Origin: Tetradesmus obliquus
Taxonomy: Eukaryota; Chlorophyta; Chlorophyceae; Sphaeropleales; Scenedesmaceae
DNA length: 64,000 nucleotides
Reading direction: 5' to 3'
NCBI GenBank assembly: GCA_030272155.1
Contig: CP126191.1
Span: 1,386,501 to 1,450,500 of the forward strand
The notes below the pieces were generated by a model, which had not been told where the DNA came from, searched no databases, and was given only the letters and a program-made list of their open reading frames with translations. The position numbers were made by a program, and so were the translations under genes. Below, one piece after another: positions 1,271 to 64,000 of this stretch; the stretch's first letter is position 1; each line of letters opens with the position of its first letter.

Positions 1271-4200
1271 ATGAGCTCTATTTCAAGGCATCACCTCTCT
1301 AGGCGTGCTCTACTGGTGATTGCCTGCTTGGTTGCTATATCAGAGGTAAGTTGGTGATGTGAGAGCGTGCAAGCGCGTTGAAACTGCAAGGATCCTGCGG
1401 AGTGTGACGGGCACTAGCACTGCTTTGAACAGCCCAGGGCAAGGCGGTTGAGTTCTAGAGACATTAATATGTGGGGCAATTATGATGTGCTTGGCGTTGG
1501 AGCGTCAGCTCACAAAACGGTTGTGAATGTGCGTCTTCCACAGGTGCGCTGCAACTCACGCACCATTCCAGGGCGCGCATTGGACCAAAAGCAGTCCCAA
1601 AACCACAGCGCGATACTCTCAGTCTCAACGGGCCGTCAGCAGCATCCAGCAGCCAGTATCAGCGCGTCCTGGTGTCAGCCCGCTTCTAGCAGTGCCAGAT
1701 GGCAGACCCTGACTGCACCAGGCCGGGCGGTGCTCAGCAAGTCCGACGTCCATGCGTGCTCTGTGATACAGCTTCCGGGTTCACACGACCCTGAGCTGCT
1801 GTACACACGCACGCAGCTGCTGATCCAGCAGCAGGCAGGTCAGACAGCGGCAGCGCAGCTGTATCAAGTGCTGCTGCTGGACTGTGATGCACAGTCTTGG
1901 CAGTTGGCAGGCCTGCAGGAGGAGGAGCACGTGTGCTTGGCTAACACGGCAGCGCTGCGGGCATCCTGCAATCAATGGTGAGTTGACTGACATGATACAA
2001 CCGAACCTGAGCACAACCGCAGCACAGGGGCGCACAGCCGTCACGGCGTGTACGTTTGTATGGTGATGTCCTGCAAGCTCCTGCTGCTCTCCAACCACAT
2101 TGCTGCAGAAGAAAACCGGATGGTAGAGCAGCGTGATGCAGGTGCATCGCAACCACACCGGCACATGTAGGGTACGGCTGCAGTGTTGACTGATGCTGTG
2201 TGCATGTATATTCTGTGTCCTGCAGGCTGCTGAGGCCACCACTTGCAGGAGAGGCCAGCTCAGAGTCCTGTGCCCCTCCCAGCACTGCCTTTGGCAGATA
2301 CGGCGACCTCACCAAGCGCGTGCTTGTCCTGCAAGCACACTGGCGCATCAACAGCAACAGCACAGCAGCAGAGCCCACAGCATTGCGCTTGCCAGACCTG
2401 CAGCTGCGGCTGGGTGCTGAGCCAGCAGCAGCTGCAGCCGATGGGCACTACACTGCAGCAGCTGATGCTGTGCAGCCGGCTCTGCTTGGCAGCTTTGTGG
2501 GTTCTGGCATCTACCCTCCATCCAGTTTGTCACACGGGCTACAGGTAGGCAACGATACTGCAAGGCTCCAATGTTCAGCATGCACAGCAAGGCTGCACGC
2601 AACCTGCAAGGTGTCGCATGTTATGTATTCGTATGTACAAGGATGCGACAAGGCAGCGGCACAGACCCTTCCTGCAGGAGCCCCGTTGACAACTTACCAT
2701 CACTGAGGCACACTTGTTGTTGTGCTGCTGCTGCGCAGGCATTTTCAGTGCAGCCGAGTGAGCTGCAGGCCATATCATCAGCAGACCTAGCCTGCACCAA
2801 GCGCTGCACCTACCTGCAGCTCGGCCGTATGCAGCCGCGCCCGGTCAACGTGGTCGGCTACAGCTTCGTTACGTTTGACCGGGCAGTGGCAGTGGCGGTT
2901 GAGGTGCAGCGGGGCTGGGCAGGCAGGTCAGCAGGGCATGTCAAGCTGAGGCAGATGCAGTGGAAGCAGACGCAGGCCGCTTCCGGAGGCCTGGTGCAAC
3001 TGCTGCAGCCATTCAAGGTGCGCTGCAGCTTTGTTTCCAGGTACCAGCAAGCGTGCTCTGCAGGAGACTGCAGTGCTGACTTTGCACAAGCCGATGAATG
3101 CTACTTGTGCAGCTGTGTGCTTTGTCTTGAAGGTAGTTTGAACGAGACGCTGCAAGCTTCACTGTACAACCATGTCTCGCCTGCTCACAGGACAACCTGT
3201 GACATGTGCAACATCAGCGCTGGCTTTTCTGTGCCAACCCTTGCATAAAATTGCTTTGTCCTTGCACAAATCCCCTGCTGCTCCTTGTTCCTGCAATGCA
3301 GCTGTATCCTGGCGACATTGTGCGCTGGCGTTGCAGCTACGACACAAGCGGCGTGCCGCCAGGAAGCACCCTCAAGGGCGGCTACAGCAGCGCAGCAGGC
3401 AGCTTGCAGGAGCAGTGCACAGTGGCGCTGCACTACTGGCCGCGTGTACAGGGCCTGCGCGGCTGTGCTGCAGCCACAATGAGTGACGCACTGCGTGGTC
3501 AGGACATGTGCAGCAGTGAGGTGGAGGACCTGCTGAGCATCACTGCTGCTGAGCAGAAGGAGCTGCCCATTAGGTGAGCCTGCAAGCGTGGCTGCTGTGC
3601 AACTGCTGTACAGCTGCTGCTGCAGGCAAGGGCCTTTCAACATCAGCACGACTTGTGCACCCAATGCGCCTGCTGCTGCTTTGTTCTAGCCAGGAGCAGC
3701 TGCAGCAGCAGCGTGTGCACCTGCAGCATCGCACAGCACCGTTGAAATTGCTGTCCCCATGTGCACCCGGCCGCTCTCCGCAGCCTTCATCCCATCTCCC
3801 GTCTGCGCGCTGCTGCTCCTGTTTGCATCTGTGCATCGACTCTGGCGACACTTGCAGGCGTATGCTCATTGAGTACGCCTCTCCTGCCTGGCGACTGAGT
3901 GACATTTCCATCTAATTCATGCTGTTCCTGCTTGCACCCCTGCCCCACACTGGCGCCACCTGCAGGCGCATGCTCAACGAGCACGCTTTCCCGGCTGGAG
4001 AATGGATGGGCGGCTGGAAGGCCACTCACATCTTGGTGCAGATGGCAGGCATCCTGGCCTGCCTGTGGGCCAGCCACAGCATGCTGAGCAGCTGCAAGTG
4101 GCTGGGCAGCTGGCACAGGCGCTTCCACCAGCTGGCACCAGGTGCGCTGACGTGGCATAACATGTTAGTAACAATGGGAATGACACATGTCCCGTTTATT

Positions 4201-10140: not shown

Positions 10141-10192
10141 GTGGTGGGGTCGCTGCCGTGCTGACTCACCCAGCGCCGCACGGCCTCATACT

Positions 10193-10225
<33 letters not shown>

Positions 10226-12735: not shown

Positions 12736-12773
<38 letters not shown>

Positions 12774-19294: not shown

Positions 19295-19325
<31 letters not shown>

Positions 19326-25118: not shown

Positions 25119-28100
25119 AGGGGAGGTGCATGATGAGGCAGCCATCAAGGCTGTTGAAAATGCCGCCATGAGCAAGCTGTCAGCCAGCAGCACGGTGAGC
25201 AAGCTTGGCAAGACGCTGGGCAGTCAAGCACAGCAGTAGTGTCTGGGTATGAACACCCTGCTCTTCCATCACAGGCAGCCAGGATGCGGGGATATGGCCT
25301 TGACCTGCAGTAGAACGCCTGCTGCACCTCAACAAACTGGTCCAGAGAGATCGACTGGTTATCAACACACTCTAGCTGCTGTCAAGCATCTCTCTGCTGT
25401 CCATGTGCTGCGCTGCTCTTCTCTAACCAAACCAATCTGGTGCATGCAGGCAGTGCGCCACCAGGCAGCAGCAGTGCTGGCAGCACTCGCGCTCAGCAGC
25501 CCTGCGCTGCTGGCCCGGCTGTTCGGAGAGTGCCTGGAGGGCGTTGAGACCTTCTGCCAGCAGCTGATGCTGCTGGCTGCGCCCTACACAAAGCCGCGGG
25601 CGTCAGCAGTCAGCAGCAGCGGCGGGCCGCCAGGCAGCAACGCCTGGTCGCCAGGTGCGCCTCATACTGCTGCTTTTATTGCTTATCAAGTGTGATCATC
25701 TGTGGCTGTGCATGCCCTGCAAGCGAGCTGCTTCTGCGCCTGTTCACCACCTGCAGTGTGCACTCCGTCACACCACAAAGCGATGTTGTGCGAGACTTGA
25801 CATCTCACCTGCCTGGCGTGCTATTGTTTTTCTTCTTACCCATCCACAGGCACGCCGCGGGGCGCCCCTGACAGCCAGACCAAGCACTGCATCGACGGCT
25901 TGCATGGCAACGCACTGGCTGTCGGCGCGCTGCTGGTCGCGTCTGCGCGCTCCGCGCTGGGCGCCCCCAGCCGCCTGACACGCAGCGTGTTCTGGATCGC
26001 CAAGCGCATGATCAGCCAGCCCTACTGCAGGTACATGTTAGCTGGGTTTGCGAACCACAAAGGGATTATTGAGACTTGCACTTGCCCACATCAAGCAAGG
26101 GCGCCACAGCAGTTGCATACTGGGCTTGGATTGAGCCAGCTTTGATGCGGTGCTGAAGCTCCATAATGTGAGCTGCAGGGTATTCCGCCACCTGAAATTT
26201 CACCGGCAGAGACCCCATCAAGTTCTTCAACTGCTGCTGCTGGTGCTGCTGCTGCTGATGCTGCGTGCAGTTGCCCCTGGGCTGTTGCAGCGGAGCGTGA
26301 GGCAGGCTACATGCTGCTGGGCTGCATGTGTGCCTCAGCAGCGCCAGGCCTCCTGGCAGGCCGCAAGAAGCAGCAGCAGATCCTGGAGCTCTTTGAAATC
26401 GCCCTAGGCCAATCAGCAGCAGACGCGCTGACTGGCACAGCAGCTGTCGCAGCGGCAGCAGCAGCGGCTGGTGCAAGCGCTGGTGCTGCCAGCGCAGCCG
26501 CAGGCGGCGGCGCGGCTGGTGCAGGGTCGCCGCAGATCGGGGTTTTGGGGTCTGGTGATGTTGAGAAGGAGCTTGCTGTGTCGTGCTGGTGGAGGGCTGC
26601 TGCGCTGCAGGCGCTGAGCGCGTATGTGCTGGGCGTGATGGGCAAGGGCTTTGCTGAGGACCCTGCGCAGCAGGTGGGCCAGGCCAGCAGCTTTTGTTGC
26701 CAACTCCTACAACGGTTATCCACACCGTCTCTTGGTCTTAGTGTCATGCATGTGTGCCGGCTGCTGTGGCACTAGGGCATTCAGTCAGATGCAGCGCCAG
26801 ATCACTGCAATGTAATCCTGGCCTCCTTGCTGCATGTTTCACCATTTACTCTGAGTGCATATCATGCTCCTGATCTGCACCTGTCAACTTTCCTACAGGT
26901 GCGCGTGATAGCCTCCCTGTTGTCGCCCCTGCTGGAGGTCATCAACAAGATGCCACACCTGGCTGACCCAACAGCACCATCAGCAGTAGCAGCAGCAGCA
27001 GCACCAGGCTCCGCACCATCGCCCACACCCGGGCCACCCCTCAGCCCTGGCAGCAACCCCAGCAGCAATGGCAACAGTGCTGCTGCTGCTGCTCCAGGCG
27101 GCTTTTCGGCGGCCGGCGGCGCTGCTGCCGGCAGCAGCGGTTGCTTTAGCAGCAGCCCGAGCGGCGCTGTGGCGGCTGCTGCTGCTGCGCTGCTGCAGCT
27201 GCGGCTCCTGGAGGTGTTTTTCTTCCTGCCTGCGCCGCAGTTTTGGGCGCACTGCCATGGACACCTGCTGCACCTGTGCTGCAGGCAGCTGATGGGCACC
27301 GGTGGCTCGAGGGTCAACCCAGGTACGCAAAGTAACAGCAGCCTTTGCTTACAACTGATGCGTGCAACTTGCTACTGCCACGAGCTGGTCTAGCTTTATG
27401 TGTAGCTGATGAACTCTGCATTCCGCGGTCCCCAGAAGCGCTGGAGGCAAATATGGCTGCAGTGCAGAGCCACAATACTTAAAGTGTCCTTTTCGCGTGC
27501 CTTGGTCATCTCACCTTTAACTGATTGACGCATCTGCCACCCCTACCGCTTTGCCTGCAGACGCCGTGGCGTGTGTGTCCTTCAGCAGCCTGAAGCACAT
27601 GCTCCGTACTCATGCGCCAACTCCTTCCCTGTGCTGCACTTCTGTCTCCTCTCATTTTGTGTGCCTGCAGACGCTGCGGCGTGTGTCTCCTTCAGCAGCC
27701 TGAAGCACATGCTCAACAGCCAGGACGCGCTGCTGGGGCCCTGGCTGCCAGGCAGGGACATGCTGGAGGACGAGCTGCGCACCTTTGTGGGTGAGTGAGG
27801 ACAGGCGCCAGATCTGAATCCGCCACTGTTAATTAGGCGCTGTTGGGATCACACACGTACACATAGTGATAGAGAAAACGGATTCTCCACGGTGTATGTA
27901 ATGTACTCTCCGCCGACGGCCATTCTGTAAGCAGTTTGTGTTGGAGATTTGAATTCTGTTTGGGTTGTGTGCAAGGTAGTGACCCAGGTCTGGCTGCCGG
28001 GACATGCTGGACGACGAGCTGCGCACCTTCGTGGGCGAGACACTGCGGCTGGCAACACATGTTTTGTGATGCGCACTCCATGTCTAATCTATGCTCCCTT

Positions 28101-39243: not shown

Positions 39244-41742
39244 CTGCTGACATGGAGGCAAATGGCGGTGTCAAGCATTCTGGTGTAGGTAGTGACCTTG
39301 CCAATGTCCGCCGGCGATCTCTGCTGTCACCGCTGGAAGCGTTCCACGCGCCCGGCAGCAGCAGCATCAGCCATACAAACAGTGGCCACAGCACTGAAGC
39401 AGTACTAGGATCCAGCGGCTTCAACCAGCTGCTGCCGCACTATGCTGTGTCAGAAGAAGACGGCCGCCCTCCTGTGCGTCCGATGTTGTGTGCCCCTGGC
39501 CTGGTCTGCACGGGTGATGTGCAGCCAATGCCGAACACATGCGTCAAAGTCCGACCTCCCAACACATGTTACCAGGTGGGCGACACTGAGAATGCTGGTG
39601 AGCTTTCCCGGGTTACATTTGGACTTCCGCAGGAATTCATGCTTGAGGTTCTGCTAGAGACAGAGGACTGCATTGCGCATTGCATAGAGGCAATTTGTAG
39701 GGCTGCACAATGTTGTGTGGCGCTGGGCTGACCTGCACGGGTGATGTGCAGCCGATTCCTAACACGTGCCTGAAAGTCCGACCTCCCAACACATGTTACC
39801 AGGTGGGCGGCGCTGCTCATATTGCTGCTGCGCTTTTGCTAGGGTTTGTCGGGGTTACATGTGGAATTCCACTGGAAGTTATGCTTCAGGTTCTGCTAGA
39901 GACTTTGTAAGAAGATTTGCATTGTGCGTTGCATAGAGGCAATTTGTAGGGCTGCACAATATTGTGTGGCCCTGGGCTGGCCTGCACGGGTGATGTGCAG
40001 CCAATGCCAACACGTGCATGAAAGTCCGCTCATGCAACACATGCTACCACGTGGGAGGCACTGCTGCTCAGAGCGCTGTTTGAGTTTAGTTTCTCCTGTA
40101 GCTTCTGCCTCACACACGCTTAGAGTGCACAAACGCGGTTTGCTGCGACGCCACGTCAGCTCAGTCTCATCCGGGTGCCTTGGTGTTCATCAGTGGCCAT
40201 GTGCATTGTGTAGTCGCCACAGTCACTGTTTTGTTATACAAAGGGCCATCTGAATATTCATCAATGCATTGTGCTGGCCCTGCAGGGCCCTTGGTGGGAC
40301 AGCACCAGCTGGTGCAAGGTCGGCAGCAACGCCAACAACCAGTTTTACGCAGGCCTGCCTTTAGAAGAACTAAAAGAGGTCGCGCAGGCACTGCTGCTGC
40401 AGCTGCCCGTAGAGCACTTCACCAACCCGCTGTCAGTCAAGTTCTGGCACTCACCGGCCGCTGATGTGGCACGAGGCAAGATCCAAGGTATCTTGGCAGC
40501 ACTGTGGCCGCAGAGCTACAGGGCAGCCACAAGATTCCCTCTGGACATCCCAGACCCACGGCATGCGGTAAGCGGGGACAATGCGCAATACCAGTGGTGC
40601 CATGTGTGGCGGAATGTCTTTAGGTGCAATGTGTTGGTAAGACATGAATGATGAGACAAGCCCCACGTTGCCACTGGCATAGTGCTGCGCTTGCCATTGT
40701 ATAGGCGGTTGAGTTGCGCCAGCCTTGCAGCTACAGGGCAGCCACGAGGTTCCCTCTGGACATCCCAGACCCTCGGCATGTGGTGAGTGACACCATATAT
40801 GTACAAGCGCACCGTCTCACTAATGCCATGTGCGACCCGGTGGTTCTAGCTGCATTGTAAGGACCTTACATGGAGTAGTTGCAAGCTGTCAATCGCACAG
40901 TGCCGTCTGTGACTGAAGTATGTGCTGTTGAGCTGGGGCAGCACCAGCAGGGTTGAGTCCTGCCGCTAGAACCTGGCAATCTGGTTGCCTTGCTGCCTGT
41001 CTGCCTGTCAGCATACATGCTGTATGCCTGTACGGCAGGTGTGCAAGGATCCAGAGAGCACATTGATCATGCACACGTCCTGGACCTCCTGTAGCCCTGA
41101 GATTAATTATGGCTGCGTTATGCAGGGCTCTGTACACTCCACAGGCTGGAACCACACAGCAGCCAAGGCAGCTTCACTGTACCACCAGTCAAACAAGGTC
41201 TGGTCAACCGTTCAGACACTTGTGCACAACATGAAGGATCCCATGCCGCCGACACAAGTGGCGGCTTCACGTGCACTGGCAGTGTGGCTGCGGCAGCACT
41301 TTATGTGCTGCAACTGCCGAGGCATGTGGGCCAACTATGTGAGTACGCACTAGCCAAGAACGTTGTGGGCTAGGCACACAATGCACGTAAGCTGCCAGTT
41401 GCCGGTGTTGCAGTCAGCACTAGCAGCAGCAGCTGATGTGTGGTTGTCGGCTTGTTGTGAGCTGATGCGCGCCCCTGCAACTGCCACGGCATGTGGGCCA
41501 ACTATGTGAGTGCGGATGCGCGAGGAGGCGCTGCCAGCTAGTCACACACTGCAATTAGGCCGTCAGCTGACAGCTTGGCACTTGGCAGAGAGCAGCAGCA
41601 GCTGATTTCGTGGTTGTTGGCTTGCTGGGAGCTGATGCAAACCCATGCGGGAGTGAAGTTGCTGTCTGTGCAGCTCGTGCGCTGCATTGGCGCTGGGTCG
41701 TCATGAACACCTTCAACGTATCCTTCTATGCCTGCCGCATGC

Positions 41743-44616: not shown

Positions 44617-44653
<37 letters not shown>

Positions 44654-46529: not shown

Positions 46530-46560
<31 letters not shown>

Positions 46561-48110: not shown

Positions 48111-48142
<32 letters not shown>

Positions 48143-49446: not shown

Positions 49447-52400
49447 ATGACGACCATGGATCGCTTCACGCCTAGCAGGGCACCAGTGAAGCGCGTGAAG
49501 GCCATCCAGCTGGGCGTGTGGGACCCCGAGGAGATTGTGAGTCCCCAGCAGTACCTGCTAACGCAGCAGCAGCAGCAGCTGTAGCCAGCAGCAACTGCCA
49601 AGCCACGCCATGCATGCCCCTTACTTGCACACGTATGCCTCAACCCGCAGAAAAAGTACTCGGTGTGCCATGTGGAGGCAGCAGAGCTGTATGAGAAGGG
49701 CAAGGCAAAGGCAGGCGGCCTGTCCGACCCTCACATGGGCACCATGGACAAATTTGGAGGCATCTGCTTAACAGATGGCGCAGGCATGCACGACTGCCCC
49801 GGATACTTTGGGCACATAGAGCTGGGAGAGCCGGTGTACCACTGTGAGCGCCTGCTGGCACAGGCTGGAGCTTTTGCAGCAGCACATGAGCAGCAGCAGC
49901 AGCAGCAGTTGAAGCCGCATGGAAAGGTTGTGCAGCAGCACTCAAGCAGCAGCAGTATCCCTGCAGCGCTTCAAGCCAGCTGCAGCAACAGATCAAAGCA
50001 TGCGAGCCATTCGCAGTCAGCGGTTGGGCTGCAGCAGCTGCTGGAGCGGAGATAGCTGTGCAGTGCACACCAGCTTGTGTTGCACAGCATGCTCTGTTGG
50101 ACTCGCAGCAGCTGCAGCAGTAGTGGCTATTCCGTATTGTGCTCATAGCATCCAAGCATGTTGCACAACATAGTTATAACTCACAGGCTCGGCAGCAGTG
50201 TGCCGCATGCAGGAACAGGACTCACACTTGCAGCAGGCGCCATGCGCAGCGTTGTGCACATGTGCAAGCCTACACAAAAGCACACCAACCACATGCCATG
50301 TGCAGCATGCTACGCATGCCTAGCACGGCCACTCGGTAGCTCTGCAAGTGCTGCGCTGTCATCCTGCAAGCTGCGTCTGTTGATCATCCCGCAATGCTGT
50401 TGTCGTGCTAGACTTTGCTGTGCTGTGCTACATGTTGTCTGTCATGCTGTGTTGTAATGCTTAGCATGCTGTGCCGTGCTGTTGTCGTGCTTTGCTGCCC
50501 TACCTGTTGGGCTACATGCTGTTTGTCACGCTGTGCTTTGTGCTGTGTGCTGCCTGCCGTGCTGCTGCAGGCGGCTTCATCAAGACGGTCATCCGCGTGC
50601 TGCGCTGCGTGGGGCACACCAACTCCAAGATCCTGCTGGACAAGGTGAGGCGGCGCAGTGCTGCTGCTGCAGTGCTGTTGATTGCGCTTGACACACTTGG
50701 TTGTTGGTGCCGTCCAACAGCCATGTACGCTACCCACGCCTGCAGCTGCCGGGCTGTCAGGACGGCGTGCACAGTGCCGAACGTTTCGCTTTTTGGCTGG
50801 CAATGCTATGTCGTGTTAACACGCTGCTGCTGCTGCTGCTGCTGCTGCAGGCTGACCCCAAGTACCGGGCGGGCCTGATGCTGCGCAAGCCGCAGGCGCG
50901 GCTGCGCCACTTTGTGGGGGCGTGCGCTTCCAAGCGCTTCGATGACGCAGGAGGTAGGCGCACTGGGCGGGAGTGGCAGCGGGAGTGGCAGCAGGGGTTC
51001 GAGCCGTGAGGCAGGCCCGTTTGCATCTTGTTTCTGCTGTTCACAGAGAGTTTGCATCTAAGCATGCAGACATCCTGAGCACTCCTGCTGTGTTGCGGCA
51101 TGCGCCTCCGAGCGCTTTGGCTATGCAGGAGGTGTGAGGGATGGGGTGGGTGGGGTTGGACAGCAGGGGTTGGAGGTGCGAGAAGGCTGGCTTGCAAGCT
51201 GTTGATTCCACTCTGTCGGCACGCGCTTGGCTGCAGGCTCGTCTGTTTCAATGCGCTCGTCTGCTCAGCTGCATCAGTGTGCAGTGCAACATGGAGTGAG
51301 CAACTTTGCTGTGTCTGGTTGGGTCATTTTGCAAGCCGGCGTACAAGCTGGCGGGCTTGAAGATCATCATGTGCTGTCAACACATCAGGCTCATACAGTC
51401 CGTTTTTTTGTCACCCGCAGGCAACCCGCAGCCGGCGTACAAGCTGGAGGGCATGAAGATCATCATGGAGTTCCCCAAGCCCAAGAACCCCGACGAGGCG
51501 GGAGCCATGCCAGAGGTGGAGCGCAAGCAGGTGCGCTGCTGCTGCTGCGTGCCTGAGGCTTATAACCAACTTTCAAAAGCGATGACGGTGTGCGTATCTG
51601 TGTGCCAGTGTTGCCGCATGCAGCGTCGCTATCTCTGTGCTGCTGGTCTTTGCTGACTCCACACTGCTCGCCGTCTTCTCTGCCCTCTGTTGCCCGTTGT
51701 GCGTCTTCCTCGGGTTGCCTTGTTCTCGGCGCTTCGCCTTGCAGGAGCTGACCGCGCGTGCCGCACACCGCATCCTGTCTGCCATCAGCGACGAGGACTG
51801 CCGCGCGCTGGGCTTCAACCCGGCCTACAGCAGACCCGACTGGTTCCTGCTGAGTGTGCTGCCCGTGCCGCCGCCGCCGGTGCGGCCGAGCGTGATGATG
51901 GACAGCAGCGCGCGGTGAGTGGCGGCGCTATCAGCTTGATTGGCAGCCTGCATCGCCCGCGGCAGTGTAAAGTTTTACAGTCACGACTACTGACGCGGCT
52001 GTGCTGCGTCATGCACACATCTCTTGTGCGCAACCTGAGATTCATGAGGTTTTGCCGCTTCAGCTGCTGCTGCGCGCCTGACAAGTGGCCTCACGACCTC
52101 GGACACAAGCTGTCGGTGCATGGTTGGCCACGAACAACTGTGATGTTTGCTTGCTTTTTTTGCTTGCGCTGCGTGCAGCTGCGAGGACGACCTCACGCAC
52201 AAGCTTTGGATGCATAATGTGCTGTCACACGTCGTCAAATTGACTGCATTCTCTTGCGCTGCGCTGCATTTTCATGCTGCGTGCAGCTGCGAGGACGACC
52301 TCACGCACAAGCTGGTGGAGATTGTGCGCGCCAACAACACGCTGAAGCGCATGGTGGCCAACGGCTCGCCGCAGCACATCATCAACGAGTATGTCGCGCT

Positions 52401-55400
52401 GCTGCAGTTCCACGTGACCACCTACATGGACAACACGCTGCCCGGCATGAACCCAGCCACGCAGAAGAGCGGCAGGCCCATCAAGTCCATCAGCCAGGTG
52501 CGAGGATACCTCGGCACAGCGCATGTGGTGGCGTGCTCGTCGAACAAGTGTGTATGCATGCATCGCTGCGCCCGCGAGTGCGCTTGCTTTGATTTCGTTA
52601 TCCTTGCGAGGTGCGGCTGGAAGGCTGGTTGAATTGCCGCCTTTGCCGGGTGAGCATGCACGCGGGAGTGATGCGCCGCCCCTGCAGCTGCTGCCAGCCA
52701 CATCATATCTGCCACGCTGCGCTGACTGCACATTTTCTGCCCGCCTGCGCCCTGGCTACTGCCTCCCCGCCTGTGCAATGCGGCTGCTTGTCTGAATACC
52801 ACTTTGCAGCGCCTCAAGGGCAGGTCGGGCCGCATCCGCGGCAACTTGATGGGCGCTGCTGCTGCTCTGAATCACATGGCTTCAACTCCTTGCGCTGAGT
52901 GCATCTTGTCCGCCTGTGTGACAATTGTTTGCCGCGCAGCGCCTCAAGGGCAAGTCGGGCCGCATCCGCGGCAACCTCATGGGCAAGCGCGTGGACTTTT
53001 CTGCGCGCACAGTCATCACGGGCGACCCAAACATTGGCATTGATGAGCTGGGCGTGCCCTGGTCCATTGCACAGAACCTGACCTTCCCGGAGACGGTCAC
53101 GGCCAACAACAAGGGCTAGTGAGTGCTGTTTGGGTGGCAGCGTGTGCCTGGGTGCTGCGTAGGAGTGACTGCCTTGACTACTGGCAAGCAAGCAAGAGTA
53201 GTGTGCTGCCTGGATTGCGTGGGGCGGTTTCAACGAATCAGCAAGGGTGCTATTGAGCAGCCAGCAAGCCTGTGTCAGATCATGCAGCATTTGCAGACGT
53301 GTTTCTGTTATGCACGTGCGCGCCTCACACTGCATGTTTCGCATTCTGAACAGATCCTGCTGCCACTGCATTGCTGCTGCTGCCGTTGCTGCCGCAGCCT
53401 GCAGGCGCTGGTGGAGGTGGGCCCTCATGCGCCCGCGGGGCAGACTGGCGCTAAGTTCATCATCCGCAAGGACGGCCGCCGCATCAACCTGGCCTACCTG
53501 CGCGACGGCGCCAGCAAGCAGCTGGAGGTGCGGCGCGCGCACTATATTCGTACACATCTTGTACTGAATGCACATAGGCGTGTTGATCATCTCTGAGCTT
53601 CTCTGGTGTCTGCACGTCTGCTTGCTTGAACCTTTCTGCTGTGTTACGCCACATATACAATCAGTTTGCTGCTGTCGCGCGCCGCTGTGCCTTGTAGATT
53701 GGCGACAAGGTGGAGCGGCAGCTGCAGAACGGCGACCTGGTGCTGTTCAACCGGCAGCCCAGCTTGCACAAGATGAGCATGATGGGACACCGCATACGCA
53801 TCCTGCCCTACTCCACCTTCAGGCGAGGCTGCTGGTCATTCGATGGTGTGCTGCCTTAGGGCTCGTGCATGGTGTGTGCACTGAAGGGTGTTGCCAGGGG
53901 ACCACGGGGTGCGGAGCGCAGTAATCACGGTGTGCTGTTGAGCATGGCGTGGTTGTGTGCGGAGTCTGTCTGCGCTCTGCAGAGAGCAGCGTGAAGCCTT
54001 GTGCAGCTGTGCTATGTCTTGTGCCACCCATGCACACGATGTCTCGCCATGCATACTTCTGTCTGGCACAATCTTACAATTCACCTGTATGTTGCTGCAA
54101 CTCCTGCATGCAGGCTGAACCTGAGCGTGACCACGCCGTACAACGCCGACTTTGACGGCGACGAGATGAACATGCACGTCGCGCAGAGCCACGAGACGCG
54201 CGCGGAGATGCGCCAGATCATGATGGTGCCGCGCAACATCGTGTCGCCGCAGGCCAACAAGCCCGTCATCGGCATCGTGCAGGTGAGTGGGGTTATGCGG
54301 GTGTGGTGCTGCGATCTGCAGCATCGTGCGATGCTTGGCAGCGGCGTGCAGTGAGAACATGGGCAATGGGCCAGGCATTGCTGACGCTAGAAGACGCCAT
54401 GAGTCGTGGGCAACTGAAAGCGCACAGCTACGATTATGTCTTGCTTGGCAAGGTGGTCATATTGCGGAAGCTCAAACAGTGGCTTGCTTGTGGTTTTACT
54501 CTTCTCCTGCTGCTTTCCAAATTCTGCAGGACATGCTTCTTCTATGTATGTTGAGTTTGTGTTGCATTCATTTGAAAAGTGTCCGCTGCTGTTGCTGTTG
54601 CTGCTGCCTCCTTGCGTGCCGCGCAGGACACGCTGCTGGGCGCGAAGCTCATCACGCAGCGCGACACCTTCATTGGCAAGCACCTCATGATGAACATCCT
54701 CATGAACATCATGGACTGGGACGGCACAGTGCCCATGCCCACCATACTCAAGCCGGAGCCGCTGTGGACCGGCAAGCAGGTGGGTCTCTTGAACCGAAGT
54801 CCACTGGTTTGTTCCTTTGTTTGGAGGTGGCGTCTGTGGGGGCCTGTAACAGACAATTGCGACAGTACATCCTCTATGTCTACCAAATGTCATTCCGAGC
54901 CGCTGTGGACTGGCAAGCAGGTGGGCGGCGCAAGGGAAAAGGGGGCATGTGTGTGCATGTACAGGCATGAGTTTGGTTGTAACATACAAGCTCGGTGCGC
55001 GGCATGTGGTGCTTCGCCTGCACACACAGAGTATGTACATCTGCGCATTGCACCGTGCACGTCGCGCCAATATCGGTACAAACAGTGGCGGCGTGTTGGT
55101 TAGCTGCACACTGCTGCGCCCTGCTGGCCCGCCTGCCTGGCTGTCTCTGTTATCAATCTCAGGCGTTCAGCTGCTTCCTGCCCAACGCTGAGTCTCGACG
55201 CAGCTACGGCTGGGCGGACTGCTGCGCCTGTCGCTGAGCTTGCCTGCCTGCGTGCCTGCCTGCCTGCCTGCGTGTGCACCTGTCGCAGGTGTTCAGCTGC
55301 TTCCTGCCCAACGTGAGCCTGACGCGCACCAGCAGCTGGGCCAAGGACAACGACGACAGGGACTTCTCTTTCGACGACTCCTCCATCCTCATAAAGCGCG

Positions 55401-55655
55401 GCACGCTCATCCACGGTAAGCCAAACCCTGCAGCATGTTATGTTTATGTTGTGTTGTGTTTGTGTTGGGGTCTCACAACTTTGATGTTTCCTCTATCCTC
55501 ATCAAACTCGGCACGATCAACCGGTATGAATGTGCTGGATTTCACATGCAGCGCTGGGATTATGTAACTGGGTTCCTCGTGCTGTGCAGCGTGTGCTGAT
55601 TGCGTTCAGCACACCGTTGCTTGCGTATAGTAACTGCCGTGGCTGCAAACCTCAC

Positions 55656-55686
<31 letters not shown>

Positions 55687-58600
55687 CGCCGCGCTGCAGG
55701 CTGCCTGTGCAAGAAGACGCTGGGCACGGGCGCAGCGGGGCTGGTGCACATCGTGTGGAACGAGCTGGGGCCAGATGCCACGCGCTACACCATCAACAAC
55801 ACGCAGTATACGGTCAACCACTGGCTGCTGCAGGTGCTGCTGCTGCTGCTGCTGCTGCTGCTTTCGCTGTCATGTGCAGCTGCCTGATGCTTGCAAAGTT
55901 GCACACGCATGCATGCGAGGAGACATGCGGTGACGCTGGCATGAGTCAGCAACGTTCGCTTGGTGGTGCAACGCTGGCTGTTGGGTCCTGCAAATGTGCT
56001 TGGTGCACGCGCTGCCTCTTGCAGCCTTCCAGTACGGGGCATGTGATTTGTAGACACACATCTCGTGCGTGTTGTACTGCCGCTTTCAATTTGGCAGCAC
56101 GGCATGTCCATCGGCATCGGAGACACGGTGGCTGACGTGGCGACTGGCGCGAAGATCGGCAGCTTGATTGACACAGCCAAGGAGGATGTCAAGCGCATCA
56201 TCGAGCAGTACCAGGTGCGGCGCTGTCGTTTGCCCAAAGAACATCTGGCGTACGCATTTGCACATGTGTGCCTGGCAGCGCAAACCTGCGTGCGGCCGAA
56301 CTAGATACGCCTGGCAACTCAGGCAGTACAACCGTGTTGAGTGCTGCGGCGGCAGCTGCCTTCTGTCAGCATGGTGGTTGTCGCACAGTAGTCACTGTGC
56401 CATGTGGTTTTCCGCATGGCTCCTGCACGTGTGGGTTGTAAGTCAAACTATCTTCCGATCAGTATTTGGTTGTGCTTGGTTGCAGACGGGCAAGCTGGAG
56501 GGCATGCCTGGCCGCACGCTGATGGAGGCGTTTGAGCAGAAGGTGAACGCAGTGCTCAACAAGGCGCGCGATGACGCAGGTGGGCGGCGGCGGCGGTGGC
56601 GGCGGCGCAGGCAGCCAGGCAGGGCCATGCAGGGTGTTGTGAGATTGGTGTTTTCTGTGTGTTGCAACAGGGAGTGGAGGGGTGGGTGAGGGCGAGGTCG
56701 AGGAGTGGTTTGCAGCTGGCCTTCCTTGCATGCATAGGAGCACCAGCTGCTATTGGTTTTGTGTGCCGAGCTCATGTACGGCTGTTCACATACACAACAA
56801 TTGGCAAAGGTGCTGCGTTTGCACAGCGTGGCGCTGACCTGCTTGCTTGCTGTTGCGGGGCAAGACGATGATGTGTGTGCTGTGTGGTGCTGCTGCGCCT
56901 GCAGGCAAGACTGCGCAGAACAGCCTGGACTGGTCCAACAACATCATCAAGATGGTCACCAGCGGCTCCAAGGGCTCCTTCATCAACATCTCACAGGTGC
57001 GGCCTTGCATCAGCCTGCAGGCATGCCTTTCTGCCGGCGTTGCTTTCTCGACTTTGCCACATTCAGCAGTCGCTGCACACCTCTGTTAGGGCATTTCTGT
57101 GGTGGTGCCTCCAGCGTGGCACGTTGCTGGAGACTCTCACACGCGCGTGCTCGCACGTCTGTTGTGGCGATGCTGCTGGGAACATGCACCACACCTGAGG
57201 ATGCTGGTGCGCGTAAGTCACTGCTGCACAGCACAAGCTGCTTCCCAAACCAACTCCAAACGCCCGCTCGCACATACCATGCTGTGGGTCCTTCTCTACC
57301 CACTTTATTGCCCCCGCAGATGATGGCGTGCGTGGGCCAGCAGAACGTGGAGGGCAAGCGCATCCCCTTTGGCTTTGTGGGCCGCACGCTGCCGCACTTT
57401 TCCAAGGACGACTACGGGCCTGAGAGCAGGGGCTTCGTGGAGAACAGCTACCTGCGCGGGCTGTCGCCGCAGGTGCGTGTATTAGAAACCCTGCTAGTGC
57501 ATGTTGAGTGTGCTCTGCCCCATGTGGGCGCCTCATGTGGGGTGCGGGGAACAGGTGCCTGGATTGTCTGCGCACGTGTGGAGCCGGGGAGGGCTTGGCA
57601 GCTTGCTTGCTTGGTCGTTGAGTTGTCTGCTGTTGAGGCTTCGTGGACAGCAGCTAGCGGCGAACGTCCTCAGCCAGCTGTGTATGCTGCGCCTCATGTA
57701 AAGCGGTATATCAAAATGTTTCACTGCTGTTGGTTTGCTGCGCATGGCTTGCAGGAGTTCTTCTTCCACGCCATGGGTGGCCGCGAGGGTCTGATCGACA
57801 CCGCTGTGAAGACCTCGTCCACCGGCTACATCCAGCGCCGCCTGGTCAAGGCCATGGAGGACCTCATCATCAAGTGAGGGACATTAGTATTCTGTTACAT
57901 TGTTCGTTATAATGTTACAGAATGTGTTATATCAGACAGTATTGTACTGTATGTGTACCGCGTCTTTGCTGTTCACAGGCCATGCACATACATGGTGTGC
58001 TTGCTTGCTCTTCCTCTGTGGTGTGTGACATTGAGCGCATCAGCTGCAGGGTGTTGCTGTTTGGATGGTGGGGTCGTGCATGAGTATGCTTCTGTGGTTT
58101 GTTGTTCTGCAGGTATGACGGCACGGTGCGCAACAGCGCGGGCGACGTGGTGCAGTTCCTGTACGGGGAGGACGGCATGGACGCAGTGCGCATTGAGGGC
58201 CAGGTGGGTGGCTAACGGCGGCTGGCTGGATGCAGCTGGGGGTGCCCTTGCTCTTCTCATTGCATGGGCTGCTTGCTGAGGTTTCATAAGCGCTACGTGC
58301 GCCTGACGGCAGCAGCCGCCAGATGTGGTTGCTGCATGCGTGCGGAGCTGCGGGTGGCGCCGATCCTTTTTGTGTTTCACCAGACGGTGGTGTGCCATGT
58401 CAGCTCAGCCTTCCTACAGACGGCTAGCAGGTTGTACTTGCATCATCTGGAAACCACTTCTGGCACTGCTGCTGTATGCGGCTGTGTGTGTTGCTGCGCA
58501 GTCCATCGAGCACCTGAAGTGGGACCGCAGCAAGGTGGCCAAGACCTTCAGCTACGAGGGCCTCACGCCAGCCGCAGCCAACTGGCTGGGGCAGCAGCAG

Positions 58601-59386
58601 CTGGAGGACGTGAACAGCAAGGTGGAGGTCCGGTGAGTGGCTTGGCTTGAAGTCGGGCCGGTTTGGCGATGCTGCTGCGGTTCGTGTGCATGTATCTGGC
58701 CAACGAGTTGCGCAGAACACGCCAATCTGCACATGTTTGTGGGTGATCAGCAACACACACGCGTATCCTCTTCGGGCCTAAACTACGGCCCTAAACCGCA
58801 GTGGAAATAATAACAACACACACCACGTCGCATGTGTGCTGTGCACTCACCTGTTTTTGTTGTGAGCTGCTGGACGTCGAATACCGCAGCATCCTGGACG
58901 ACCTGCGGTTCATACATCTTGTAACAACACAGCATAACATAGCCCTGCTGTTACATAACGCGTTTGGACACGCTTGCAGCGAGCTGCTGGACGGCGAGTA
59001 CCGCAGCATCCTGGACGACCTGCTCTTCATGCGCCAGGAGGTGCTCACGCACGGCAACGGCGGCGTGAACATCCCCGTGAACCTGAAGCGGCTGATCTGG
59101 AACGCGCAGAACACGTACAAGTGCGGGCCCAACCGGCCGCCGCTGCCGGGGGAGCTGGCGGCTGTGGACGTGGTGGGAAAGATCCAGGTGAGATCTCGCG
59201 CACGTGTTGTGTGGGGTAATGGAAAAGCTTGGTCTGAACGGATGCTGCCAGGTGTGGCACACAGAGGTCTAGGAAGTTTGGTTTCTCGCTGTCCTGGGAT
59301 GGGTCTGCGTCTGCTGCTGATGCCGTGGGTGTGCCCCGTAGCGCTGCTGCGTGCTTCTGACTGCAGCTGCTCACGAGCTGTGCTGC

Positions 59387-59434
<48 letters not shown>

Positions 59435-62400
59435 AGGAGCTTGCCCAGAAGTTGATCGTGGTGGTGGGCGAGGACGAGCTGAGCAAGGAGGCGCAGCGCA
59501 ACGCCACCACCACCTTCATGACGCACCTGCGCGCCACGCTGGCCAGCAAGCGCGTGCTGGGAGAGTACAAGTGAGCATGTTGCACTCATATGCATAAATC
59601 CTAACTTGCAACAACCCTGTATTGCTGAAAACAAGTTGACTTGCAGCAACTGTGCGTGAAAAACAGTTCGTGCTGGGAGAGTACAAGTGAGTCAGTTGCG
59701 GCGGTGGTTCTGCTGCCGCTGCTTTACAGGGGCAGTTGCTGGCTATGTTTTGGTTGAGCCTACTGCACATCAGAGTGAGAGAGAGCGCATCGCTGCACCT
59801 GCTGCAGTGCTTCAGGGCACACACGCAGATACACAGCAGGCATTGGTTTATTCACCAACACGATGTGTATGATTCTGTGCTGTGCCGCAGGCTGAGCCGT
59901 CAGGCCTTTGACTGGCTGGTGGGTGAGATCGAGGAGCGCTTCAATGCGGCAATGGCCAACCCTGGGGAGGCCATCGGCACTGTGGCTGCGCAGAGCATCG
60001 GCGAGCCCACCACGCAGGTGAGGGGCAGCAGGCTGGGCGCAGATGCAGCCGACATGAGCAGGTCCCCGTGAATATGTGCTGCAAGTACTACTTACAGCAG
60101 TAGGCATTGACATGATCATAAATCTGGCGCAGAGCATTCGCCAGCTCATCATGCAGGTCAGGGGTGAGGCGCAGATGTGTGGCAGGTGCCTGCAATGATG
60201 TTCTTTGAGTGGTAGTAAGCCATCTTCTGCAGTGCTCCTGTCTGTGTTGTGTTGTATTCACTGCCGGCGTGTGATGTTGGAAGCTCTTTTGCTTCATCGT
60301 GTAACGCCTGCTCTGCATGTGCCCGCCTGCCTGGCCTCGCGCGCAGATGACGCTGAACACGTTCCACTTTGCGGGTGTGTCGGCGAAGAATGTGACGCTG
60401 GGCGTGCCGCGGCTGACGGAGATCATCAACCTGGCCAAGAACATTAAGACGCCCTCGCTCACGGTGCGCATGTTGGATGCATCATCGTAGCTGGTTTGTA
60501 TGTTGTGCATGGGGGGGATTTTGCAGAAGGAGGCGCTTGCTGTAGCCTGGCAGCCTGCTTGCTGCTTGCCATGATGTGTGCGTCACCTGCTGAGTGCAGG
60601 GGCTGGACGGTGTTGTTTGTGTGTCACGGGTTGTGTGCAGAACATCAGCTGGCTGCGTTTGCTGCCGGTATGAAGCTTTTCTGCTGTTTGGTGTGCATAT
60701 TGAGTTGCGGCTTGCAAGATTTCGTTTAGCGCATGTACTTAGGCACAGCTCTTCAACAAGGCTGTGCGCCACACATCAATCCAGTTGTCATGCAACATGG
60801 CCTTGTTGCTGCACACTTGACTGCCGCAGGTGTGCCTGCTGGGCCAGGCCAGCCGCGACCGTGATGCGGCCAAGGAGGTGCAGTGCCAGCTGGAGTACAC
60901 CACCATGCGCCACATCATCGCGCGCAGTGAGATCTGGTGAGCCGCGCTGCATGCGTATTTTACCGTATCACAGTGTAGCTGCAGCTGTTGCATTATGTGT
61001 TCACCATGCGCCACGTCATCGCGCATAGCGCCAGCTGGTGTGACAAGCTGTGTGGCAGCAGGTCGATTGCGCATGTTGGCGTTGCCCTGACCTTCTCAGA
61101 TACGCAATGCACTGCAGTTGTTGTCAGGCAGGTATGACCAGCTGCAGGTCGACTCAGAGGCCACTAACGTGGCTGAGGACGTGTCGCTGCTTGAGGACTA
61201 CTACGCATCTTGTGCCTGGCCTCTTTTCTCGTAACACCTGCACCGTTGAATTGTATATGATTGCAGGTACGACCCGCCGCAGATGGATGCGGAGGCCACG
61301 AATGTAGCGGAGGATGTGTCGCTGCTGGAGGACTACTACGCTGTTGAGAACTACGACGCGAGTCGGCTGACGCCGTGGCTGCTGCGCCTGGTGCTGGATG
61401 AGCGGCTGACGGTGGACAAGCACATCACGATGGACATGATCCAGGCACGCATCCACGAGGAGTACGAGGTGAGGGGGCTGGATGTGGCATGGCGTGCTGT
61501 TGGCCAATGGGTGCTGGTTCAACTGCAGGGATGGTGGATGTTTGAGGTATGGGGCACAGCCGTGGTGCCAAATCGACTATGCAGCCTGTAGGTTGCAGCC
61601 TATCGCCAGGCTTTGGGTCGTGCTGTTGCCTGTTGCCTGTTGTGATGCTGGGAGCGACAAGCACATCACCATGGACATGATCCAGGCACACATCCACGAG
61701 GACTACGAGGTAAGCGGGCATGTGTATTGAGGCATGTACGGTGTAGGGGCATGGCTGGGCTTGTGGTTGGGCAGTGGGGGTAAGCTGGGATGGTGGGCGT
61801 TTGAGGCATTGGGCACGGCAGTGGTGCCAACCTGACTTCGCTGAGCTACAGCCTATGTATGGTGTCTGGCTGTGGGGCTTGTTGTTGCGTGTTGCCTGTT
61901 GCCTGTTGCCTGTTGATGCTGGGAGTGCCAAGCACATCACCATGGACATGATCCAGGCGCGCATTTACGAGGAGTACGAGGTAAGCGGGCCAGCTGCGTT
62001 GCTGCTAACAGGCCTTGAGCCTTGGTAGCCTGCCACACTTCTGGGGATGCTGATTTTGCTGATGTGTTTGAATGTGCAAACCCCCGCCTGCTACCGCTGC
62101 TGCCGCCCCCGCCTAACACGTCAACCTACCCCTCCCTTGCATGTCCCCCTTACGTCTCTAATGGCCTGCTGGGCGAGATTGTGCCCGGACTTGAATCACT
62201 CACAGCACTGCTCATTGCTGCTGCTGCTGCCGCATTGTCTCTTCTGCCGCAGGGCCTGCTGGACGTGATTGTGTCAGACGACAACGCGCCCGTCAAGGTG
62301 GTGCGCCTGCGCATCGTGGACGACAGCGGCCAGGGCGGCGGCGGCGGCATGATGCAGGGCGGCGAGGAGGGCGACGAGATGGGCGCGATCAAGCCCATGG

Positions 62401-64000
62401 CAGGCGGCGGCGACGACAGCCAGGTGAGGGGCGTGCCTGTTTGTGTGCTTGTTGTGTGGGGATCGCAGGCTGAGTGCAAGGGATGTGTGGCAGAAGCAGA
62501 GGGTGTTTAGGGGCAGCAGATGGGCGCGATCAAGCCCATGGCGGGCGGCGGCGACGACAGCCAGGTGAGGCGCTTATGTGTTGTGCAACATGTGTAAGCA
62601 GCAATGTGCCATTCAGCAGCAGATGGGCGCCATCAAGCCCATGGCGGGCGGCGGCGACGACAGCCAGGTGAGGGTCGTGCTCGTCTGAAACAGGCGATGC
62701 TGAGTGCAAGCAGGGTGTCCTACAGCAGCGATATGCCCTGGAAGCTTACTTTCCGCTGCCGCCGCTGCTGCTGTGCCAGGCTGTGACTGACGAGACGCTG
62801 AAGAAGCTTGACGCTGGATACCTGCGGGACATGAAGCTGCAGGGCGTGGAGCGCATCAACAAGGTGTTCCTGCGCCAGCAGAAGAGCCTGTTCCCTGATG
62901 CTGCTGCCGCCAATGGGTACCGGCAGGAGGAGGAGTGGGTTCTGGACACGGAGGGCGTCAACCTCATGGGGGTGAGCGGGCTTGCAGGAACCTGCAGGAA
63001 CTTGCAGGAACCTGCAGGAACCTGCAGGAACCTACAGGAACTTGCAGGAACTTGCAGGAGCTGGTGATTAAAGGAATGTTGTGGCTTGGGGTGCATGACC
63101 GCATGTGTGGCTTTGTCGACTGTGGGTTGAGTGCTGCGGGATAGAGTGGACGAGGCTTCCGCAGGGGCTGTTTGAACATGCGCAAAGTGTGTGCACACAG
63201 CCCGGTTGACGGCAGCACGCGTTACAACTGTGTCTCCGCTCCCTCTGACCTGCTGCTGATGTGCCTCGGGTGTACCCTACACTCTGCTGTGTTTTGCGCT
63301 GCGCAGGTGCTGCCGCAGCCGGGCGTGGACCCGAGCCGCACCATGAGCAACGACCTGATCGAGATCATCCAGGACCTGGGCGTGGAGGCGTGCAGGCAGG
63401 CGCTGCTGCGCGAGCTGCGCAACGTGATTGAGTTCGACGGCAGCTACGTCAACTACAGGTGGGAGGCAGTGCGGCAGCAGCGTGCGGACTTGATGTGTGC
63501 AGCTGCGGGCAGTGGTTGGAAGGGGTGCATGCGTGCTGAGGTTGGCGCTGGGAACACACAGCGTCAGATGCAGCTGCTGCTTTTGTTGATTAATTGGGGA
63601 AGCGTCCGTGGATGTGGCGGGATCTTCAATCACAGTTGCTGGCTAGCTGAGAGTTGTGCTGCTTGCTGCTCTGCCCTGCCAAACTCGTCATGTGTCGACG
63701 TGTCGAACGTGCGCTGTCCCTATCGCAGGCACCTGGCCATCCTGTGTGACGTGATGACGTGCCGCGGGCACCTCATGGCCATCACGCGCCACGGCATCAA
63801 CCGCACCGAGGCCTCGCCGCTGGCGCAGTGCAGCTTTGAGGAGACGGTGGACATCCTGCTGAGGGCGGCGCAGTTTGCGGAGAAGGACAAGCTCACGGTG
63901 AGGGACGGGGGTGCTGCTGTGTTTGTGCTGATGCTGTGGGTTGCTGCTCATGCGGCGTGCCGGGGGTAGCGCTGTTTGTGAGGAGACGGTGGACATCCTG
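49447..64000 (+). CDS. RPB1: RNA polymerase II largest subunit RPB1 (3' end beyond window)
   Basis: Thirty-one exons join in frame for 1448 codons: 49447-49536, 49651-49843, 50571-50644, 50851-50953, 51421-51530, 51745-51914, 52287-52497, 52940-53118, 53398-53527, 53698-53822, 54114-54282, 54627-54779, 55289-55415, 55700-55833, 56098-56214, 56486-56579, 56905-56996, 57320-57472, 57755-57873, 58113-58203, 58502-58632, 58980-59187, 59437-59570, 59891-60017, 60347-60463, 60830-60936, 61267-61468, 62253-62423, 62780-62971, 63307-63458, 63729-63897. Catalytic NADFDGDEM has Mg-binding Asp 474/476/478; the bridge helix ([20 protein letters not shown]) and trigger loop ([20 protein letters not shown], His1085) are intact, so it should be an active Pol II core. 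ETRAE after the active site and other details fit Pol II rather than Pol I or III. The N-terminal clamp lacks most zinc ligands. Intron 10 is GC-AG. Many introns carry exon-edge echoes. The CTD lies outside the window. Confidence 0.97.
50824..50850 (+). repeat. (CTG)8-CAG tract at RPB1 exon 4 acceptor
   Basis: Eight CTG units end in the CAG acceptor used by exon 4 (50851). Confidence 0.88.
51331..51372 (+). repeat. Echo of RPB1 exon 5 start
   Basis: A copy of the [12 protein letters not shown]-coding segment (true from 51432), 96 bp upstream, starting GCAAGCCGGCGTAC, with two amino-acid-changing differences. No CAG acceptor is kept. Confidence 0.88.
52171..52212 (+). repeat. Echo of RPB1 exon 7 start with a usable acceptor
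   Basis: A copy identical to exon 7 over GTGCAG and CTGCGAGGACGACCTCACGC, 108 bp upstream (acceptor at 52179 against 52287). The 108 nt between are open and in frame, so use of the upstream site would insert 36 residues. Confidence 0.9.
52803..52856 (+). repeat. Echo of RPB1 exon 8 start
   Basis: A copy of [15 protein letters not shown] coding sequence with its CAG acceptor, 130 bp upstream of exon 8 (52940). The offset is not a multiple of three and a stop follows, so use would truncate the protein. Confidence 0.9.
53823..54113 (+). other. GC-AG intron in RPB1
   Basis: The donor is CAG-GCGAGG, the acceptor GCATGCAG. Joining at the GC gives [17 protein letters not shown], a nearly invariant RPB1 segment, and no nearby GT donor keeps that frame. 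Confidence 0.82.
54897..54925 (+). repeat. Echo of RPB1 exon 12 end
   Basis: A copy of EPLWTGKQ coding sequence plus the GTGGG donor, 141 bp downstream of the true exon end (54779). Confidence 0.85.
55157..55200 (+). repeat. Echo of RPB1 exon 13 start
   Basis: A copy of the acceptor and FSCFLPN coding segment, 126 bp upstream of the true exon (55289). Confidence 0.87.
55479..55527 (+). repeat. Echo of RPB1 exon 13 end
   Basis: A more diverged copy of the [13 protein letters not shown] segment and donor, 110 bp downstream. Exon 13 therefore has echoes on both sides. Confidence 0.8.
58862..58917 (+). repeat. Echo of RPB1 exon 22 start
   Basis: A copy of [17 protein letters not shown] coding sequence, 117 bp upstream of exon 22 (58980). 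The acceptor CAG is lost (TGTGAG) and several residues differ. Confidence 0.9.
59389..59436 (+). repeat. (CTG)15-CAG tract at RPB1 exon 23 acceptor
   Basis: Fifteen uninterrupted CTG units lead into the CAG acceptor of exon 23 (59437), the longest such tract in the window. Confidence 0.95.
59669..59691 (+). repeat. Echo of RPB1 exon 23 end
   Basis: A copy of the VLGEYK coding end with its GTGAG donor, 116 bp downstream. Confidence 0.85.
60127..60178 (+). repeat. Echo of RPB1 exon 24 end
   Basis: A degenerate copy of the [10 protein letters not shown] segment and donor (true about 59988-60045), 139 bp downstream; the donor has become GTCAGG. Confidence 0.7.
61001..61043 (+). repeat. Echo of RPB1 exon 26 end
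   Basis: A copy of [13 protein letters not shown] coding sequence, 101 bp downstream of the true exon end. Confidence 0.85.
61127..61230 (+). repeat. Echo of RPB1 exon 27 start; possible 99-nt cassette exon
   Basis: A copy starting at 61132, 135 bp upstream of exon 27, with its CAG acceptor. Over the 17 codons of [17 protein letters not shown] it differs from the parent only at synonymous positions. A weak GTAACA donor at 61231 would make a 99-nt, phase-matched cassette exon; without it the frame meets TAA at 61232-61234. Confidence 0.8.
61650..61710 (+). repeat. Echo 1 of RPB1 exon 27 end
   Basis: A copy of [17 protein letters not shown] coding sequence with a GTAAGC donor, 241 bp downstream; two residues differ. 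No in-phase acceptor seen. Confidence 0.88.
61920..61981 (+). repeat. Echo 2 of RPB1 exon 27 end
   Basis: A second copy, 271 bp after the first echo, with a GTAAGC donor. The flanking GTTGATGCTGGGAG is shared with echo 1, so the unit includes intron sequence. Confidence 0.88.
62517..62564 (+). repeat. Candidate in-frame tandem microexon A of RPB1
   Basis: A 48-nt copy of the end of exon 28, with a GGGCAG acceptor and GTGAGG donor, phase 0 at both ends, encoding [16 protein letters not shown]. It differs from the parent only at a synonymous position. Splicing from exon 28 (62423) to here and on to 62780 keeps frame. Confidence 0.7.
62617..62667 (+). repeat. Candidate in-frame tandem microexon B of RPB1
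   Basis: A 51-nt copy with a TTCAG acceptor and GTGAGG donor, phase 0 at both ends, encoding [17 protein letters not shown]. Differences from the parent are again synonymous only. Confidence 0.7.
62981..63060 (+). repeat. 10-bp minisatellite after RPB1 exon 29
   Basis: Eight tandem 10-bp units of the form CYTGCAGGAA (one CCTACAGGAA variant, last unit ending GAG), starting 10 bp past the exon 29 donor. Confidence 0.95.
63978..64000 (+). repeat. Echo of RPB1 exon 31, truncated by the window edge
   Basis: GAGGAGACGGTGGACATCCT, coding for EETVDIL in exon 31 (63838-63858), recurs 140 bp later and continues past the window. Confidence 0.85.

Follow-up and report, generated by a model that had tools for sequence, protein, structure and literature searches.

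About one in six of the introns that we examined in Tetradesmus obliquus contains a duplicate of a neighbouring exon’s edge, and the additional length of these introns is matched by the duplications that they contain. We refer to such a copy as an ‘echo’: a direct copy of the adjoining exon edge, located inside the intron. Short tandem duplications crossing the exon–intron border are the most likely origin of the echoes; once formed, the divergence of the exon-derived half of an echo is uncoupled from that of its intronic flank.

The window considered here is a 64,000-nucleotide stretch (C1:1386501–1450500) of an assembly of 104,662,953 bases in 17 contigs. Our first sample combined the window with 20 stretches of 10 kb picked at round coordinates, all 20 free of N, and provided 256 introns; a second sample of eight further stretches, one of which (L022) is the continuation of the RPB1 gene described below, provided another 71. 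Outside RPB1 and a protease gene, exon borders are predictions from a gene finder for which RPB1 was the training gene (it recovers 29 of the 31 exons of RPB1 exactly; initial settings that over-called exons were replaced), and we excluded beforehand predicted genes with less than 600 nt of coding sequence as well as any intron flanked by an exon shorter than 40 nt. Exon-edge copies are present in 40 of 256 introns in the first sample and 15 of 71 in the second, 55 of 327 in total, as against 0 of 256 and 1 of 71 when the introns were reversed (reverse-complemented) and none in either sample when introns of other genes were used instead; the report of such copies in an initial annotation of the window is thereby upheld. 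Taking the next intron in the list as control gave 2 and 8 positives of 256, which we take to be neighbours belonging to the same exon or array. Duplications lying wholly within an intron are rarer (13 of 327 introns), in a count that left out beforehand introns shorter than 180 or longer than 3000 nt, along with four introns with known exon copies or echo–echo pairs. One intron-only tandem pair is found at 11895–12088 (offsets 111 and 115), in a predicted intron of the minus-strand gene.

Self-alignment of the window returned 114 direct segment pairs (score at least 14, offsets 20–999), 53 of them, by manual count, from a single tandem array at 9.3–10.1 kb, and just five weak inverted pairs inside 1 kb, in line with the earlier description of the copies as direct and not inverted. 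Per offset, direct pairs scoring at least 18 number 0.42 at offsets of 100–150 versus 0.001 at 1000–2000, with zero at 2000–4000 and 5000–7000 (alternate offsets tried). The excess is not confined to the window: at offsets of 100–150 the 20 further stretches hold 89 direct versus 2 inverted pairs, the former number being inflated by a few tandem-array loci, chiefly L011. Extensive arrays, with periods of ~75–155 bp and more, run into predicted exons at L010, L011, L019, L021 and L025; part of these may be repeated coding exons overlooked by the gene finder.

Within the window, the exons of the gene for the largest subunit of RNA polymerase II (RPB1; 49447..63897, plus strand, continuing beyond the window end) were fixed by hand. 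Its 31 exons and 30 introns here give a 4344-nt coding sequence without a stop; residues 4–1053 of a 1056-residue part align with RPB1 chains in the PDB, and the one exon queried has a single match in the genome. Twelve of the 30 introns bear echoes in our table (10 at score 18 and 13 at score 14 with exon-only probes), all on the plus strand. Working along the gene, we see that a copy at 51334..51371 matches 51430–51467, 9 nt into the exon starting at 51421 (offset d = 96, 36/38 positions alike). Copies of a 3′ splice site together with the exon start lie at 52177..52205 (exon start 52287; d = 108, 29/29; with a weaker second copy of the same edge at 52093–52121), 52806..52854 (52940; d = 130, 46/49), 55157..55187 (55289; d = 126, 29/31) and 61128..61206 (61267; d = 135, 65/79); the exon start at 58980 recurs at 58864..58913 (d = 117, 46/50), its splice AG gone. 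At the opposite border, exon ends and their 5′ splice sites are echoed at 54897..54925 (exon end 54779; d = 141, 28/29), in the intron that also holds the 55157..55187 echo, and at 59669..59699 (59570; d = 116, 28/31), with copies of exon ends at 55489..55522 (55415; d = 110, 28/34), 60127..60164 (60017; d = 139, 31/38) and 61002..61040 (60936; d = 101, 32/39). Two serial echoes of the exon end at 61468 with its 5′ splice site occupy 61656..61990 (the first at 61656–61719, d = 241, 59/64; third copy at 61929–61990), and two of that at 62423 occupy 62518..62680 (d = 141 and 244); here the echo–echo pair 62513–62570 / 62616–62673 is alike at 57 of 58 positions, the sequence preceding it poorly so. 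RPB1 also has an intron (number 10, at 53823) that apparently starts with GC in place of GT (exon end ...TTCAG, then GCGAGG), in agreement with both the reading frame and the alignment of RPB1; and a 10-bp tandem repeat, TGCAGGAACC, is present in 7.7 copies at 62983–63059, just behind an exon end.

The remaining plus-strand genes are similarly marked. In the first, the 3′ splice site and exon start at 3966 are echoed at 3839..3878 (d = 108, 33/40). In the gene at ~21.7–37.1 kb, those at 27671, an exon called by the gene finder, recur at 27552..27604 (d = 110, 50/53), the exon end at 27790 recurs at 27996..28039 (d = 244, 40/44), and an exon start read by eye at 36712–36754, in an exon uncalled by the gene finder, recurs at 36598..36640 (d = 114, 42/43). 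Three copies of an exon end with its 5′ splice site fill 39483..40065 (offsets 227–249; border by eye), their intron parts also remaining alike; two such copies are found at 40514..40787 (d = 215, 54/59; both called exonic by the gene finder) and a further two at 41308..41514 (d = 167, 37/40; border by eye). A 44-bp tandem repeat of 3.2 copies (35922–36064) is flanked by a pair of exon-start copies (offset 232). An 83-bp repeat of 2.3 copies (42278–42471) begins in the last predicted coding exon and crosses the stop codon there, a case of tandem duplication at a border of coding sequence where no splicing is involved.

The initial annotation had reported echoes across four plus-strand genes, and we tabulate 29 pairs there, a number that includes echo–echo pairs and one pair across a stop codon; the division into four genes is our own reading, the gene finder having merged the second and third. 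Thirteen of its offsets (110, 114, 96, 108, 130, 141, 126, 110, 117, 116, 139, 101 and 135) were recovered exactly and one given as 109 probably as 108. What it had described at the 3′ end of a minus-strand gene corresponds to an array of a 239-bp unit in 2.3 copies (9559–10113). This array has 96% matches and an inner periodicity of 27/54 bp, and overlaps an exon predicted close to that gene’s 3′ end. Elsewhere in the window, positions 14001–18000 combine a strong negative GC skew and positive AT skew with few predicted exons on both strands; six pieces of the window’s other predicted genes, scanned against Pfam, returned only a sub-threshold match to FAST_1.

The suggestion that such copies enlarge introns is supported: median length is 417 nt for introns with echoes, 256 nt after removal of the offsets, and 271 nt for those without. 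Most offsets (52/70) fall at 80–160 bp, with some at 200–430. In Table 1 of PMC5966456, T. obliquus has a GC content of 57%, with which that of the present assembly agrees, and a mean intron of 462 bp, versus 230–302 bp in three other Sphaeropleales.

Where protein evidence is available, the additional copy appears to be removed by splicing, as had been proposed. A D1 protease intron holds an echo (L030:801–850) of the exon edge at 892–941 (d = 91), and the exons encode a stretch matching the photosystem II D1 protease of PDB entries 1FC7/1FC6 at 185 of 185 residues; the 1FC7 protein has the exon version and no echo insert. The 1FC7 structure is from Scenedesmus (now Tetradesmus) obliquus. Likewise, alignment of RPB1 with PDB chains shows no insertion at the eight of twelve echo-bearing junctions covered (introns 6, 7, 12, 13, 18, 21, 23 and 24). 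For the analyses that follow we use a ‘strict’ set of 52 cases from which possible whole-exon copies were removed, the filter and thresholds having been chosen in the course of the analysis. The three frames are about equally represented among the offsets (16/17/19), 23 of 25 echo indels (50 pairs examined) are not multiples of three, and the inner ends of echoes have no opposite splice site clearly above control windows; the earlier idea that echoes supply alternative exons finds no support in these data. On the strength of the near-control inner sites we reject cassette exons as a general answer, and these sites, with the indels and the offset frames, speak against tandem or mutually exclusive coding exons. 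That some copies are real extra coding exons, produced by tandem exon duplication, is suggested by parts at 62377, 62518 and 62621, which differ at synonymous sites only, are in frame by eye and, for two of the three, were partly called as exons; with the frames, inner splice sites and covered protein junctions all against it as a general reading (the 62423 junction being outside the query), we regard this as highly improbable. Some echoes were called as exons by the gene finder, and echoes are a pitfall for such programs.

Codon-position rates point the same way. The ratio of third-position to first- and second-position mismatch in the strict set is 2.36 (95% interval 1.75–3.27), near that of a neutral echo and far from coding. 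Across all 70 echo sides there is a significant third-position excess (observed/expected 1.56, 1.19–2.01), weaker in the 52 strict cases, and we think that missed exons cause part of it; 76 of 138 strict codon differences are synonymous, a share above the ~41% that we estimated by hand as the maximum for a neutral echo. This raised synonymous share would also be expected if an echo were the exon edge of the other haplotype, misplaced in a patchwork assembly, as very diverged alleles show a conserved exon, a diverged intron and an intact splice consensus. Against such an artefact stand the 17-contig assembly with its N-free stretches, and a strict third-position mismatch of just 12%, too low for introns so unlike; moreover, the frameshifts, the non-synonymous changes (15, to 16 synonymous, in RPB1 echoes) and the near-neutral codon-position rates argue against a collapsed-copy assembly error, making this explanation very unlikely. 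One echo pattern, sought in bacterial genomes as an independent contaminating copy, had 0 matches.

Turning to the anatomy of the echo, the exon part is mostly 20–80 nt (80 being the probe length) and is at distance 0 from the splice junction in 39 of 58 cases at score 16, 41 of 52 strict cases and 43 of 50, although abutment is in part a product of probes confined to exon sequence. Of 150 seeds free of this restriction, 63 have their end in the interval from −3 to +20 around the junction, 14 reach beyond 20 nt on the intron side, in the manner of plain tandem repeats, and 73 stop short of the junction, ~60 of these by more than 50 nt; the array locus L011 contributes 68 of 158 border seeds. 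As a set, echoes retain homology on the intron side beyond the splice site (mean 7.1, null −1.3, standard deviation of null means 0.55, n = 50), with the inner end only slightly above its null (mean 0.15, null −1.9, standard deviation 0.54, n = 42). Identity on the intron side is 0.71–1.0 over the first 3–5 nt, beyond which it drops to ~0.45 or lower (n = 18 and 17), and mismatch on the exon side is 4–11% in all bins to 80 nt. Residual intron homology is seen in about half of cases (flank recognisable in 25 of 52 strict). Direct, local, same-gene copies above chance, in host introns longer by the offset, are what duplication over the border predicts, and the copies are of different ages, as the initial annotation had it. 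Copying from spliced RNA was considered and rejected, the echoes adjoining an intronic AG or GT (distance 0 in those 43 of 50) and not the next exon.

If both halves of an echo date from a single duplication, our simple model predicts for the exon half about two thirds of the divergence of the intron half. Instead, the divergence of the intron half exceeds that in neutral simulation (simple, hand-set rates) in 40 of the 52 strict cases, in 41 of the 50 first-sample cases that left enough space for testing, and in 53 of 68 of the combined unfiltered set; a rerun gave 39 of 50, weakening to 28 and 19 of 50 under harsher indel settings. Simulations that include the detection step agree with this excess, least so under heavy indels. 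Exon-part mismatch is 0.072 with a recognisable flank (n = 25) and 0.070 without (n = 27), and the divergences of exon part and flank are uncorrelated (rho +0.18, p 0.21, n = 52), as expected of a converted part uncoupled from its flank, whereas neutral simulations give rho of −0.52 to −0.64 and recognisable flanks in 86–94% of cases versus 48% observed. With conversion included, rho is −0.06 and −0.13 and recognisable flanks 46% and 29%, at a hand-set conversion rate and a simulated mean mismatch of 4.2–4.8%, below the observed 7.1%. Among exon parts at least 96% identical, simulated flanks score above 12 in 78–100%; the observed figure is 2 of 10.

These comparisons bear directly on the initial annotation’s own reading, in which echoes are plain relics of one border duplication followed by ordinary decay, hidden from selection. 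The origin fits; the whole pattern does not, since a copy merely hidden from selection would lose its exon and intron halves together. For most cases we therefore consider neutral decay improbable, although the other 12 strict cases are consistent with it, heavy indels could mask some flanks, and the nine flank-first pairs that also kept their exon edge look ordinarily neutral. Higher indel rates may partly account for the lost flanks, yet intron-only pairs keep theirs (10 of 13 recognisable despite 12% seed mismatch, versus 25 of 52; a modest difference). Decay of this kind would also accommodate the 30 of 68 spacers with a second similar copy, 28 of them in the same locus, a distribution that disfavours a mobile spacer. 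The remaining 38 spacers had no second copy among the 29 sequences searched, as might be expected were there two kinds of birth: true tandem duplications alongside exon-edge copies joined via unrelated filler by template switching in break repair, in which case many flanks would have lacked homology from the outset. Equal exon-part mismatch in the two flank classes would follow, but copies ending at the junction (in so far as this is not forced by the probe) and bearing a working-looking splice site would go unexplained, and 24 of 68 flanks are decayed yet still homologous; we judge a double origin of this sort to be rather unlikely.

The splice sites themselves raise the main rival: selection keeping echoes for working sites, perhaps in the role of decoys or of unproductive alternative sites by which expression is tuned. 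Polypyrimidine tracts at echo 3′ sites score 0.683 (n = 21), level with the true sites of their introns (0.681) and above random intron positions (0.515), and kept echo splice sites in general score like true ones. A-type echoes with flank homology gone still reach 0.676 (n = 8), which plain drift does not predict and which leaves room for selection on these sites. Saying this, GT/AG is retained in 43 of 50 cases, approximately the drift expectation at 7–8% mismatch; the indels shift the frame, the inner end has no clear opposite site, and the 40–70 closely copied exon bases are more than a splice site should need. Selection is, on this evidence, an unlikely explanation. Exons with A-type echoes start with GT in 8 of 21 strict cases versus 69 of 327 overall.

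The explanation that we favour is tandem duplication followed by homogenisation of the exon-derived half. Short tandem duplications (mostly 80–160 bp, some 200–430) would keep arising in the genome; one that straddles a splice junction would leave an extra exon edge and splice site in the intron, lengthening it by the offset, and with the spliceosome taking out the extra copy the protein would be unchanged. Afterwards the constrained exon would serve time and again as the template for the exon-derived half (the edge and a few splice-site bases), through local gene conversion or through template switching from one direct repeat to the other ~100 bp away, as the unconstrained intron halves drift apart, such that the echo seems young beside an old-looking flank. 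We hold the origin by border-crossing duplication with strong confidence. For the later step, local conversion from exon to echo fits best, and we hold it, as an inference from sequence, with moderate confidence. For the account as a whole the balance of probability is about even. A stronger version, in which roughly one intron in six is enlarged by ‘living’ echoes, each continually re-copied from its exon edge in concerted evolution as the intervening DNA turns over, we offer tentatively, and on balance lean against; if true, introns grow and are remodelled under cover of splicing by a cycle of duplication plus conversion.

Why intron lengths differ between relatives is an old question, and insertions that can be counted and dated, and that match the length gained by the introns carrying them, make intron growth directly measurable; the uncoupling of exon edge from flank offers in addition a test of very short-range gene conversion. 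Short tandem repeats undergo concerted evolution by gene conversion, which leaves copies more alike than their flanks. Echoes share this resemblance beyond the flanks, but the pair here consists of a constrained exon edge and an intronic copy, with mostly 20–80 bp shared. Gao and Lynch (2009) reportedly described internal gene (tandem) duplications and their effects on introns, tolerated through splicing. Tandem duplication within genes is common to both; what sets the present case apart is the growth of existing introns, roughly one in six of our sample, and an exon-derived part whose preservation does not depend on that of the intron part. Among the matches listed in our literature search, the titles and abstract openings describe neither such a density nor the uncoupling of exon edge and flank. 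With intron gain by tandem duplication (Rogers model; the potato RdRp case of PMC4974935), the shared element is a duplicated segment carrying splice signals. At one locus, L019 8460–8577, offset and intron length coincide (116) on both sides, as that model predicts, and the intron may have been created by duplication; otherwise no new intron is formed, the offsets being mostly 80–160 bp in host introns of median 417 nt, and the echo sits in an existing, longer intron. Introners (PMC9860276) likewise bring about serial change in the intron content of genes, algae included. The intron holding the 58864..58913 echo, the sole intron queried genome-wide, matched only itself and its own exon edge, and no element family is seen for it; unlike introners, echoes are copies of the local exon edge.
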